Positions 21,757 to 26,510 of a stretch of 64,000 nt of DNA are shown in pieces. Below the pieces are notes generated by a model, which was given only the letters and a program-made list of their open reading frames with translations, had not been told where the DNA came from and searched no databases. The stretch comes from Peptococcaceae bacterium. Its GTDB lineage: Bacteria; Bacillota; Peptococcia; Peptococcales; Peptococcaceae. Both the position numbers and the translations under genes were made by a program. How positions within the stretch are numbered: the stretch's first letter is position 1; every line of letters starts with the position of its first letter. The DNA lies in contig JAFQEO010000008.1 of NCBI GenBank assembly GCA_017399005.1, forward strand, positions 1 to 64,000, in the 5' to 3' direction.

Positions 21757-23070
21757 ATGTTTGAACTGGTAGAGCATACAGCAGCCATCAATAAACAGCT
21801 GGCTCGCTATGGTGTAAGATTTGGTATCTATAAGAATAACGAATTTCATGAGCAGTTATTTCCGTTTGATACTATTCCCCGGGTGATTCCGGCCGAGGAA
21901 TTTGATTTTCTGGAAAAAGGGCTGATTCAGCGTGTCAACGCACTGAACGCATTTCTTGCAGATATTTATAGTGAGAAAAAAATTATTGCCGATGGAATCG
22001 TTCCGGAAGAATTTGTGTACAGTTCCTCCGGCTATCTGCCGCAGTGTGAGGGAATTGTGCCGCCAAACGGTATTTTCAGCCATATTTCCGGTATTGACCT
22101 GGTGCAGGCGGAAGATGGCGAATGGTATATTTTAGAGGACAATCTGCGGATTCCATCCGGTGCATCCTATCCTTTAATTGCAAGAGAACTGACAAGACGA
22201 GTATGTCCTGATGTTTTTTATGCCAATAAGATTCGGGATAACCGTAATTACGGTGATTTACTGCGGGAAACGATGGAAGCGGTAAACTGCGGCGGGATTC
22301 GTGTGATTCTGACACCGGGCCGGTACAATGCTGCATTTTTTGAACATTCTTATCTGGCGGAAAAAACCGGCTCCATTCTGGCTATGCCGCAGGACTTATA
22401 TGTAGAGGATAATGTGGTGTATTATCGCTCTTACGATGGAAATCCGCAGCGTGTTGGCGTTATTTACCGCCGCATTTCGGATGAGTATCTGGATCCACTG
22501 ACATTCCTGCCGGAATCGCTGATTGGTGTGCCCCATCTGATGGAAGCCTACAAGGCTGGCAATGTGGCGATTATGAATACACCGGGCAATGGTGTAGCCG
22601 ATGATAAAGGGATTTATTACTTTGTACCAAAAATGATTCAGTATTATCTGAAAGAAGAACCGATTCTGAAAAATGCACCGACATATCTTCCAATGTATGA
22701 GGAAGACCGGGTGTATGTGCTGGAGAATCTGGAGAAACTGGTTATCAAGGATGTAGCAGAAGCTGGCGGGTACGGTGTTGTGTTTGGCCGCGATTTAAGT
22801 GCGGAAAAACTGCAGGAAATGAAAAATCTGATTCAGAAAGAACCTCGCCGGTTTATTGCACAGGAAATCATTTATTTTAAAGATTTAACCACAATGGAAG
22901 ATGGCGTTGCAGTAGAACGAAAAGCGGATTTGCGTGCTTTTGTGCTGACTGGCAAGACCACTAGAGTATGGGCAAGCGGGTTAACACGGTTCTCCCGCAA
23001 TCCGGAATCTTTTGTGGTGAATTCTTCGCAGGGAGGAGGCTTTAAAGACACATGGGTGCTATCTCGTTAG
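21757..23070 (+). CDS. Circularly permuted ATP-grasp ligase
   Basis: 437 residues of the circularly permuted ATP-grasp type 2 family (formerly DUF404/DUF407). Visible blocks are NALNAFLADIYSEKKIIADG, GYLPQCEGIVPPNGIFSHISG, then DGEWYILEDNLRIPSGASYP (the acidic metal/ATP site), GNVAIMNTPGNGVADDKGIY and KPxx-like VIKDVAEAGGYGVVFG. ATP-grasp enzymes join a carboxylate to an amine through an acyl phosphate. In published comparative work, members next to alpha-E and transglutaminase genes were proposed to make peptides or amide-linked metabolites. The C-terminus overlaps the alpha-E gene by 19 bases. It heads a five-gene operon and is preceded by AAAGGAAAGGGG. Confidence 0.92.
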   Translation: MFELVEHTAAINKQLARYGVRFGIYKNNEFHEQLFPFDTIPRVIPAEEFDFLEKGLIQRVNALNAFLADIYSEKKIIADGIVPEEFVYSSSGYLPQCEGIVPPNGIFSHISGIDLVQAEDGEWYILEDNLRIPSGASYPLIARELTRRVCPDVFYANKIRDNRNYGDLLRETMEAVNCGGIRVILTPGRYNAAFFEHSYLAEKTGSILAMPQDLYVEDNVVYYRSYDGNPQRVGVIYRRISDEYLDPLTFLPESLIGVPHLMEAYKAGNVAIMNTPGNGVADDKGIYYFVPKMIQYYLKEEPILKNAPTYLPMYEEDRVYVLENLEKLVIKDVAEAGGYGVVFGRDLSAEKLQEMKNLIQKEPRRFIAQEIIYFKDLTTMEDGVAVERKADLRAFVLTGKTTRVWASGLTRFSRNPESFVVNSSQGGGFKDTWVLSR

Positions 23071-23726
23071 AAAAATCTCAGCAGATGTACTGGCTGGGAC
23101 GTTATACAGAGCGTGTGTTTACAACACTGCAGGCATACACGATTTTATTTGATGAAACTGTGGATGAACGGCAGGTATTGTATGATAAATTCTGCCAGAC
23201 AATGGGGATTCCAGATGTATATGGTTCTCAGGCAGTATTTTTCGAAAACTTTTTATTTGACAGCAACGACAGCAGTTCGGTTGTAAGCAGTCTGGACCGG
23301 GCATTTGATAATGCTGTGGTTCTGCGTGATGAAATCAGCAGCGAGTCACTGTCTTATATTCATCTGGCAATGGAACAGCTTCAAATGGCACGCACTTCCA
23401 GAGAACGGCTTCTGGATTTACAGTCGATTCTGGATTATCTTTATGCCTTCTGGGGCAGTGTGGATGACAGAGCCAACAGTGAAGTGTGCCGTAATCTGAT
23501 GAAATGCGGCCGTTATGTGGAACGTATGGACTTATATGTGCGTCTGCACTTTTCGTATGCAGAAGTAGAGCGTTCCTATTATAAACTGCGCAGTCGAATC
23601 GGCAAGGCGGGGATGCCATATCAGGAGGAAATGCTTGACTGCATAGGAGAATGTATTATTTCGGAAGAAGTTCTGAATGAAAATCGTCAGAAAGCACTGA
23701 ATTGTCTGGCGCAGCTGTTCTCCTGA
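23052..23726 (+). CDS. Alpha-E domain protein (DUF403)
   Basis: 224 residues, all-helical. Key features are the N-terminal MYWLGRYTERVFTTLQAY (the Glu-Arg pair that names the family), a repeated LxLxxS-type amphipathic pattern, and CGRYVERMDLYVRLHF in the second half. The biochemical role is unproven; it is nearly always encoded next to the circularly permuted ATP-grasp gene and sometimes fused to it, so it is taken as its obligate partner. The overlap with the preceding gene implies translational coupling. The next gene begins about 40 bases later. Confidence 0.9.
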   Translation: MGAISLEKSQQMYWLGRYTERVFTTLQAYTILFDETVDERQVLYDKFCQTMGIPDVYGSQAVFFENFLFDSNDSSSVVSSLDRAFDNAVVLRDEISSESLSYIHLAMEQLQMARTSRERLLDLQSILDYLYAFWGSVDDRANSEVCRNLMKCGRYVERMDLYVRLHFSYAEVERSYYKLRSRIGKAGMPYQEEMLDCIGECIISEEVLNENRQKALNCLAQLFS

Positions 23727-23763
23727 GAAATGCTGGACAGAAGTTTTATATGAGGTGTTAGGA

Positions 23764-24543
23764 TTGCATAATGTGAAGTTTTCTTATAGGATGGAATTGC
23801 AGTTCAGCCAGCCGGTATGGCAGCATAGTTTCAGCCTGCTTGCTTTTCCTTTGCGCCTGCCGGAACAGCAGATAGATTATTTTAAATGGTCTCTGCAGCC
23901 GGATGTGACATTACAGTTTCAAAAGGATTCGTTTGGCAATACCATTGGTGTCGGGCGTTATGATGCAGCACATACATCGTTCTGTTATGAGATGGAAGGT
24001 GTGGCCCGGCTACATCAGCAGAAACGGGAACCGGAGGCCTGTCTTCCGGTATACCGGTACCCGTCTGCAGCATGTCAGATGACAGATCAGATGCAGAATT
24101 TCTTAAAGCAATGTGGAGCAGCGCAGGACGACAGATTATCATATGCGTCTTATCTGATGAATCAGCTTTATCAAATGTTCCGTTATGAAACAGGGAGCAC
24201 ATCGGTATCCACTACAGCCGGAGAAGCTTTTGCACAAGGCTGCGGTGTATGTCAGGATTATGCACAGATTCTTATTGCTCTGTGCCGTGCCAGTGGCATT
24301 GCTGCACGGTATGTAGCGGGAATAATAGCAGGAGAAGGCGTAACACATGCCTGGGTGGAAGTATATGAGAATGGAATGTGGCATGGAATGGATCCAACGC
24401 AGAACCGGCTGGTGGATGACGGATATTTGAAACTGGCGCAGGGACGCGATTATCTGGACTGTCGGCTGAATCGCGGTGTATTTTGCGGTGCTGCAGTTCA
24501 AGAGCAGCATGTATATGTCAGTCTGGAGGAACAGCAAGTATGA
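23764..24543 (+). CDS. Transglutaminase-like cysteine protease/amidase
   Basis: 259 residues. An N-terminal beta domain (MELQFSQPVWQHSFSLLAFP) precedes a transglutaminase core with a full catalytic triad: Cys in QGCGVCQDYAQILIALCR, His in THAWVEVY and Asp in MDPTQN. The start is TTG at 23764 with GAGG about 9 bases upstream; an in-frame GTG at 23755 is possible. Bacterial members act as peptidases or amidases, and in this gene context are thought to cleave or transfer the amide made by the ATP-grasp enzyme. It ends in an ATGA overlap with the next gene. Confidence 0.88.
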   Translation: MHNVKFSYRMELQFSQPVWQHSFSLLAFPLRLPEQQIDYFKWSLQPDVTLQFQKDSFGNTIGVGRYDAAHTSFCYEMEGVARLHQQKREPEACLPVYRYPSAACQMTDQMQNFLKQCGAAQDDRLSYASYLMNQLYQMFRYETGSTSVSTTAGEAFAQGCGVCQDYAQILIALCRASGIAARYVAGIIAGEGVTHAWVEVYENGMWHGMDPTQNRLVDDGYLKLAQGRDYLDCRLNRGVFCGAAVQEQHVYVSLEEQQV

Positions 24544-25478
24544 TAGAACGTGTAATTGAAGTAGGACTGCCAGTGGATGAGAAACTGGTAATTGTCCGGA
24601 ATCGGCTGCAGCCGGACGAGCTGCGCGGCGATGAAAGACGAATTGCAATTGTGACTGGAACACACGGGGATGAACTGGAAGGGCAGTATGTCTGCTATCT
24701 TTTGAATGATATTATTCAGAAGAATAAAGAACATTTACATGGTATTGTCGATATCTATCCGGCGCTGAATCCGATGGGGATCGATTCCATCACTCGTGGG
24801 ATTCCAATGTTTGATATGGATATGAACCGGATTTTTCCCGGGGATGAACGTGGTGCAACAGCGGAGTATGTTGCGGCAGGGATTATAAAAGATTTGTCCG
24901 GAGCGGATATGTGTATTGACATTCACTCCAGCAATATTTTTCTGCGTGAACTGCCGCAGATTCGTATTAACGAACAGTCGGCTCTGAAGCTTCTGCCGTT
25001 TGCAGAACTGCTGAATATGGACTTTATCTGGGTGCATAGTGCGGCAACGGTACTGGAGGCAACGCTGGCCTACAGTTTAAATCAGATCGGGGTACCAACT
25101 CTGGTAGTGGAAATGGGTGTTGGCATGCGAATTGACCAGCACAATGGACAGCAGCTGGTGGATGGAATTCTGAATCTGATGCAGAGTATGGGTATCTGGA
25201 CAGGCCCTGTGCCCAATGTTCGCTGCCCGATTATTTCCCGTGACGGTCATGTAGGTTATATTAATGCAGAGAAAAGCGGAATTTTTGTGTCGCAGGTAGA
25301 TCATCTGGATACAGTGCGGCAGGGCGATGTGGTGGGTGCAATTGTAAGCCCGCTGACAGGCGAAGTGCTGCATCAGATACAGGCACCTTGCAGCGGTATG
25401 ATTTTTACGCTGCGTGAATATCCTGTTGTAAATGAGGGCTCTTTGATTGCCCGTATACTGGGAGGTAGTGTGCAGTGA
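24540..25478 (+). CDS. M14-type zinc amidohydrolase (AstE/AspA, succinylglutamate desuccinylase/aspartoacylase-like)
   Basis: 312 residues. Zinc ligands and catalytic residues are all visible: GTHGDELEG (His42 and Glu45), CIDIHSS (His129), and Glu191 in LVVEMGVG. The MDMNRIFPGD Asn-Arg motif binds the substrate carboxylate. A C-terminal beta domain carries HVGYINAEKSGIFV. The family removes acyl or amino-acyl groups from amino acids, or a C-terminal residue from peptides. The start at 24540 is chosen from the ATGA overlap with the transglutaminase gene, with GGAGG upstream. It is the presumed active partner of the degenerate paralogue that follows. Confidence 0.9.
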   Translation: MIERVIEVGLPVDEKLVIVRNRLQPDELRGDERRIAIVTGTHGDELEGQYVCYLLNDIIQKNKEHLHGIVDIYPALNPMGIDSITRGIPMFDMDMNRIFPGDERGATAEYVAAGIIKDLSGADMCIDIHSSNIFLRELPQIRINEQSALKLLPFAELLNMDFIWVHSAATVLEATLAYSLNQIGVPTLVVEMGVGMRIDQHNGQQLVDGILNLMQSMGIWTGPVPNVRCPIISRDGHVGYINAEKSGIFVSQVDHLDTVRQGDVVGAIVSPLTGEVLHQIQAPCSGMIFTLREYPVVNEGSLIARILGGSVQ

Positions 25479-26416
25479 GAGAAGAAATTTTATATGAACT
25501 GCATTCACCCTACCGGGAAAGTCTGAAAGTTCATGGATATTATTTTGGGCAGGGAAACAAAACGGCCTGTATTGTTGGCGCTCTGCGCGGCAATGAAGTA
25601 CAGCAGATGTATGTATGCGCCCGCCTGATTGAAGTGCTGAAAAAGCTGGAAGCAGAAGGTGCTATCGTGGAAGGACAGGAGATTCTGGTGATTCCTTCTG
25701 TGAACCATGCATCGATGAATATTGGAAAACGCTTCTGGCCTATTGATGATACCGATATCAACCGGATGTTTCCAGGCTATCATCTGGGGGAAACAACACA
25801 GAGAATTGCATCCGGTTTATTTGAAAAAATCAGGGGATATCAGTACGGGATTCAGCTGACCAGCTTTTATATGATGGGTGAAATTATCCCGCATGTACGT
25901 ATTCTGGACCTGGGTTACCATAACATTGAACTGGCAAAAGCATTTGGTATGCAGTATGTGATGCTGCGCCGCCCTCGTCCATACGACAGTACGACACTGA
26001 ATTACAACTGGCAGGTATGGGAATCTAATGCGTTTTCTTTATATACAACACATACCGATGAGTTTGACACACCGGAAGCCATGCGTATGGTGGATCACAT
26101 TTTAGGCTTTTTAAGCCATTGCGGAGTGATAACATATCGAAAACGGCCGGGATATGCCAGCCATGTTGTAACAGATAAAAATCTGGTAACTGTTCAGACA
26201 GCAACTTCCGGGTTATATCGGTATTTCAGAAATCCGGGTGAAGTGGTACACAAAGGAGATTTACTGGCGCAGGTGCTGGACCCGTTTGAGGCAACCGTTC
26301 AGGAAGAACTGTTTGCACCTGTTGACGGAACGGTATTTTTCCGGCAAAAGAGTCATTTGATTAATCAGAATGCTGTAGCATTCAGATTACTGGAAGAATC
26401 AACTGGAGATATGTAA
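25475..26416 (+). CDS. Degenerate AstE/AspA-like paralogue lacking zinc ligands (likely pseudoenzyme)
   Basis: 313 residues, clearly a paralogue of the preceding protein: same fold order, DTDINRMFPGYH aligned with MDMNRIFPGD, and a similar C-terminal beta domain. The active site is gone. The HxxE motif reads LRGNE (Arg38 in place of His; Glu41 kept), the second His is replaced by Thr129 in IQLTSF, and the region of the catalytic Glu reads FSLYTTHTDE with no aligned Glu. The substrate-binding Asn-Arg is kept. It starts at GTG 25475 by a GTGA overlap. It may be a ligand-binding or regulatory subunit of the active enzyme rather than an enzyme itself. This is the last gene of the operon. Confidence 0.85.
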   Translation: MREEILYELHSPYRESLKVHGYYFGQGNKTACIVGALRGNEVQQMYVCARLIEVLKKLEAEGAIVEGQEILVIPSVNHASMNIGKRFWPIDDTDINRMFPGYHLGETTQRIASGLFEKIRGYQYGIQLTSFYMMGEIIPHVRILDLGYHNIELAKAFGMQYVMLRRPRPYDSTTLNYNWQVWESNAFSLYTTHTDEFDTPEAMRMVDHILGFLSHCGVITYRKRPGYASHVVTDKNLVTVQTATSGLYRYFRNPGEVVHKGDLLAQVLDPFEATVQEELFAPVDGTVFFRQKSHLINQNAVAFRLLEESTGDM

Positions 26417-26427
26417 CAGGAAAAAAG

Positions 26428-26473
26428 AAGAGCTACTCATGCAGAGTCTGATAAGCACGAGTAGCTCTTTTTG
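26428..26473 (+). terminator. Intrinsic terminator of the ATP-grasp operon
   Basis: GAGCTACTC (26430-26438) pairs with GAGTAGCTC (26459-26467), followed by TTTTT. The loop is long (20 bases). Confidence 0.8.
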
Positions 26474-26510
26474 TGTCCTGCTGGACAATCATATAGTATC
26501 TTAATAGAAA

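Follow-up and report, generated by a model that had tools for sequence, protein, structure and literature searches.

A conserved putative pseudoenzyme of the AstE/AspA family is encoded directly behind its intact paralogue in clostridial genomes

Operons encoding an ATP-grasp protein, an Alpha-E protein and a transglutaminase-like protein have been described with Anbu as their fourth member (PMC5666114, PMC6376114), and in one study Anbu had no peptidase activity (PMC6376114). The cognate genes of this trio are under NtrC/sigma54 control in Burkholderia (PMC5491218) and, in marine metagenomes, the trio goes along with urea metabolism (PMC3597751); on these grounds, an operon that adds amide hydrolases to the trio is likely to both form and break amides within nitrogen metabolism. 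Among the hydrolases of the AstE/AspA type, the N-acetyl-L-2,4-diaminobutyrate deacetylase DoeB/EutE (PDB 6twm/6twl) is reported to act jointly with a partner enzyme, EutD (PMC8739950), while CphZ (PDB 8ein/8eip) hydrolyses the cyanophycin dipeptide beta-Asp-Arg. No pseudoenzyme of the AstE/AspA family was found in our literature search.

The locus presented in this work lies in a window of 64,000 nucleotides, which is the whole stretch of DNA that we analysed (contig JAFQEO010000008.1 of a Peptococcaceae bacterium). Five genes follow each other on its + strand: a circularly permuted ATP-grasp ligase (21757..23070; PF14403 1.8e-141, PF04174 8.8e-131), an Alpha-E protein (23052..23726; PF04168 6.1e-19), a transglutaminase-like protein (23755..24543; PF01841 2.6e-19, PF08379 2.2e-6), an AstE/AspA-type zinc amidohydrolase with an intact site, here M14a (24540..25478; PF24827 5.1e-25), and its altered paralogue M14b (25475..26416; PF24827 2.5e-12), an open reading frame of 313 aa with a GTG start. 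This is also the usual order among relatives; the first-pass annotation had made no mention of M14b being the last of five such genes. The ATP-grasp and Alpha-E genes overlap by 19 nt, and the transglutaminase and M14a genes by 4 nt, as do M14a and M14b, which bears out the overlap reported in the first-pass annotation; the sole gap of the run is the 28 nt between Alpha-E and transglutaminase. A hairpin followed by a T run (26417..26480, + strand; fold -31.2 kcal/mol, z -7.1) resembles a terminator at the end of the operon, and it was missed by a simple terminator scan that permits short loops only. The first three genes are of like kind and order to those of Anbu operons, but the M14a/M14b pair occupies the place of Anbu. 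Anbu was not found in the twelve genomes tested, in the operon or elsewhere. A proteasome-family gene was absent from 10 of these 12, and the genome of the window and a second one from its genus (G001) each carry one of HslV size (about 180 aa), outside the operon.

Both proteins pass the cut-off of 25 bits for the AstE_AspA_cat profile PF24827 (88.6 bits for M14a, 47.2 bits for M14b), and they are 21% identical to each other over 284 aa (E 4e-21). Their AlphaFold2 models have a pLDDT of 87.6 for M14a and 87.3 for M14b, with residues 81-90, before the Asn-Arg motif, as the least certain part of both. The best solved matches were DoeB/EutE, mlr6093, 3cdx and 3na6, joined for M14b by CphZ; in Foldseek, the M14b model reached a TM score of 0.79 with DoeB (6twm) and likewise 0.79 with CphZ (8eip). 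According to these models, the AstE/AspA fold is retained by M14b. With DoeB/EutE, the fold is common to both proteins (TM about 0.8) at about 20% identity, whereas the catalytic site is kept in M14a and gone in M14b; neither is DoeB, since the equivalog TIGR02994 gave 58.8 bits for M14a and 41.1 bits for M14b against a cut-off of 402.7. CphZ has family and fold in common with M14b at 15-17% identity, but cyanophycin genes were not noted in the M14a/M14b operons.

M14b thus has the profile, the fold and the Asn-Arg motif of the family, but lacks the HxxE...H ligands and the catalytic Glu. The site of M14a consists of His42, Glu45, Asn96-Arg97, Asp127, His129 and the catalytic Glu191, and the matching places of M14b hold Arg38, Glu41, Asn96-Arg97, Gln127 and Thr129; Tyr190 of M14b aligns with Glu191. 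The first-pass annotation had placed the gene correctly and had rightly listed Arg38, Thr129 and the lack of a catalytic Glu. M14a is presumably an active zinc deacylase/amidohydrolase, whereas we infer from its residues that M14b cannot be a zinc amidohydrolase by the known mechanism.

This pattern is not a peculiarity of one genome. When one genome per species was scanned, M14b relatives were encoded at 505 places; nearly all of the 80 best came from clostridia, chiefly Lachnospiraceae and Clostridium. In an alignment of 121 clostridial M14b sequences (these best loci plus 40 loci from an evenly drawn sample), Arg38, Gly39, Asn96, Arg97 and Tyr190 are invariant and Glu41 is found in 120/121, so that the retention of this Glu and of the Asn-Arg motif, claimed from the single sequence, extends to this clostridial set. 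Position 127 is Gln in 116/121 and His in 5, position 129 varies between Ala, Thr, Pro, Ser, Val and Arg with His in 0/121, and the metal histidines and the catalytic Glu are absent from all 121 sequences. By contrast, the site is kept in at least 117 of the 120 M14a sequences: His42 in 117/120 (Tyr in 3), and Glu45, Asp127 and His129, like the catalytic Glu191, in 120/120 each. The alignment of orthologues that had been proposed as a check therefore gave the expected answer, the same substitutions in 121/121. Moreover, a second assembly from the genus of the window carries a copy that is 90% identical; this independent assembly and the 121/121 conservation rule out chance or an assembly or sequencing error. 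The five loci with His127 (L096, L098, L099, L101 and L105), four of which also have SHY for SFY just after, form a sub-lineage of M14b with an apparently changed pocket. The Tyr for the zinc ligand His42 occurs in M14a of L039, L092 and L093, all three of them pairs that have no ATP-grasp, Alpha-E and transglutaminase genes close by; M14a is thus possibly altered too in some stand-alone pairs.

Mean column identity in thinned alignments was 73% for M14b and 69% for M14a, and the dN/dS of five close pairs (Nei-Gojobori) was 0.024-0.040 for M14b, similar to or below the 0.031-0.076 of M14a. Given a dN/dS of about 0.03 and the 121/121 conservation, M14b is under purifying selection and not decaying. 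Together with the constant pairing described below and the single deep clade, the conserved loss of the site upholds the proposal of a selected pseudoenzyme, which is strongly supported by these sequence data over recent decay.

The pairing itself was followed in one order-level sample of 393 genomes, where M14b occurs in 65 and M14a in 63, each of the latter also having M14b (63/63). In about 120 clostridial gene clusters, M14b was directly downstream of M14a in all intact loci examined, and the commonest spacing was the 4-nt overlap (63/119 pairs). The sole cases of M14b without M14a were truncated remnants of internal deletions: in L131, L132 and L133, found in the two extra M14b genomes and, as an additional copy, in a third genome, a deletion has fused the start of ATP-grasp with the end of M14b; each time the same two genes were joined, with M14a and the operon middle lost. 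Such decayed operons, and the missing metal and catalytic residues, might suggest that M14b is a duplicate in the course of decay. We consider this highly improbable, as M14a and the operon middle are gone from the remnants too, and as the low dN/dS, the identical substitutions in 121/121 and the intact frames across a deep clade contradict it.

The rest of the operon is less constant. Alpha-E was present in 43 genomes, 42 of which also have the M14a/M14b pair, whereas 23 of the 65 M14b genomes are without Alpha-E; the ATP-grasp/Alpha-E/transglutaminase trio is therefore nearly always accompanied by the pair while the reverse does not hold, and the substrate of the pair need not come from the trio. 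The one exception, G281 (L130), has the three genes without the M14 pair and no proteasome-family gene in its genome. As M14b shares an operon with ATP-grasp and Alpha-E in most genomes, it could also act on its own as a sensor or binding protein, making no contact with M14a, and regulate or feed the ATP-grasp/Alpha-E part. There is only a small chance of this, for many loci have kept the pair where ATP-grasp, Alpha-E and transglutaminase are missing, and the evolutionary distances of M14b follow M14a, not ATP-grasp. Indeed, M14a and M14b distances correlate at 0.83, with a partial correlation of 0.38 given the other three operon proteins, second only to ATP-grasp/Alpha-E (0.53) and to be compared with 0.06 for M14b and ATP-grasp. 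The co-evolution that the first-pass annotation suggested looking for is thus seen in the distances, but its weight is limited because co-inheritance in one operon confounds it.

Within the genus of the window, the pair occurs in 2 of 8 genomes (the window and G001), and none was found among the other genomes of the family sampled. Beyond the sister from the same genus, the nearest relatives of the window M14b are clostridial proteins about 55% identical. This patchy distribution, together with the clostridial relatives, makes it likely that the operon of the window was acquired horizontally. In the plasmid collections, only distant AstE-like proteins and no M14a/M14b pair were found. On the Vibrionaceae plasmids L161, L167 and L171, genes for RimK, an AstE-like hydrolase and a RimK-associated protease stand side by side; an ATP-grasp peptide ligase likewise adjoins an AstE/AspA-type hydrolase there, but the ATP-grasp belongs to another family and the hydrolase is single, without a pseudoenzyme.

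A tree was rooted in context by 18 outgroup members, namely DoeB, RimK-linked, archaeal and other firmicute homologues. It shows one clade each for M14a and M14b, and the two join in a single clade (100/98), with a long-branch warning. New here is the finding, in a phylum-wide search, of a small order with a homologous operon in six of the nine genomes examined, whose M14b keeps the zinc ligands (HGDE, DxH) and has Met at the catalytic Glu in 6/6. These proteins (L176/G782, L177/G760 and L186-L189) carry the motif DINRMFPGYxxGETTQRIA and are placed behind M14a. The small-order M14a groups with the other M14a (100/100), while the best tree places the small-order M14b beside M14a (97/90), and a topology that unites it with the clostridial M14b could not be rejected (p-AU 0.204). 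What speaks for a common origin of the small-order and clostridial M14b is the GYxxGETTQRIA motif, the gene order and the operon that they share. The 83 genomes of the class to which this small order belongs yielded no M14b whose site is complete. According to the first-pass annotation, orthologues with intact His/Glu/His ligands in related genera would point to recent decay; pairs with these ligands do exist, but in a distant order and, in all six, without the catalytic Glu, so that the loss of the site is ancient and apparently stepwise instead of recent. The small-order M14b is a candidate evolutionary intermediate, and the simplest account would be one ancient duplication, after which the general base was lost first, followed in the clostridial line by the metal site.

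The same homologue bears on whether M14b is catalytic by another, metal-independent chemistry in a remodelled pocket. A dense set of polar residues is newly invariant in M14b and not shared by M14a (R38, Q43, Q44, Y132, D171, T174, N176, N178, W179, Q180 and Y190), which speaks for this reading, but the zinc ligands without Glu in the small order suggest that catalysis was lost first. We know of no precedent for such chemistry in the AstE/AspA family and hold it to be unlikely.

We rather favor, as a probable reading, that M14b is an old selected pseudoenzyme, co-translated with M14a and likely part of a hetero-oligomer with it, and that the two together make up the hydrolytic side of a nitrogen-linked amide module. 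It is very likely from the conservation that M14b binds something or supports its partner M14a and is not junk. That M14b is a stoichiometric partner of M14a is suggested by the constant pairing and the overlap, and a hetero-oligomer of the two is plausible, with the correlated distances as further indirect evidence. Within it, M14b would most likely bind substrate or an effector carboxylate and position or regulate M14a. To judge by the aligned positions, the guanidinium of Arg38 would replace a metal ligand, and together with Glu41, Asn96, Arg97, Gln127 and Tyr190 it could form a carboxylate pocket. In most relatives, as in the window, the pair would serve as the hydrolase arm of the amide-forming ATP-grasp/Alpha-E/transglutaminase module, which is probably tied to nitrogen metabolism. 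The mitochondrial processing peptidase is an active/inactive heterodimer of metallopeptidases in which the inactive paralogue supports the active one; the concept is alike, but the fold family is different and the M14a/M14b complex is only putative. More tentatively, and with somewhat less than even confidence, we propose a five-gene clostridial module in which an active AstE-type deacylase works only with a pseudo-deacylase whose lost zinc site was rebuilt as an Arg-based ligand pocket; the pseudoenzyme would have arisen in steps, the general base going first and the metal later, with an intermediate lineage surviving.

The neighbour genes hint at nitrogen or amine metabolism. In Clostridium (L014, L020, L046 and L065), the pair has a GABA aminotransferase and regulators of the PucR family as neighbours, with a PotD-like protein also in L046; a gamma-glutamyl-GABA-hydrolase-like gene is near the pair in five loci, and amino-acid or urea-type transporters are among the neighbours too. 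These genes are too sporadic to name a substrate. Several stand-alone pairs also have PurL next to them, apparently as a matter of shared gene order.

To conclude, our study describes a widely conserved pair of an active and a putatively inactive enzyme in the AstE/AspA family, for which a candidate intermediate makes the order of loss testable. The pair also provides a way to approach the function of the ATP-grasp/Alpha-E/transglutaminase module, which is still unsolved. Many clostridia, including gut ones, carry the pair, and automatic annotation will tend to label both of its genes as enzymes.
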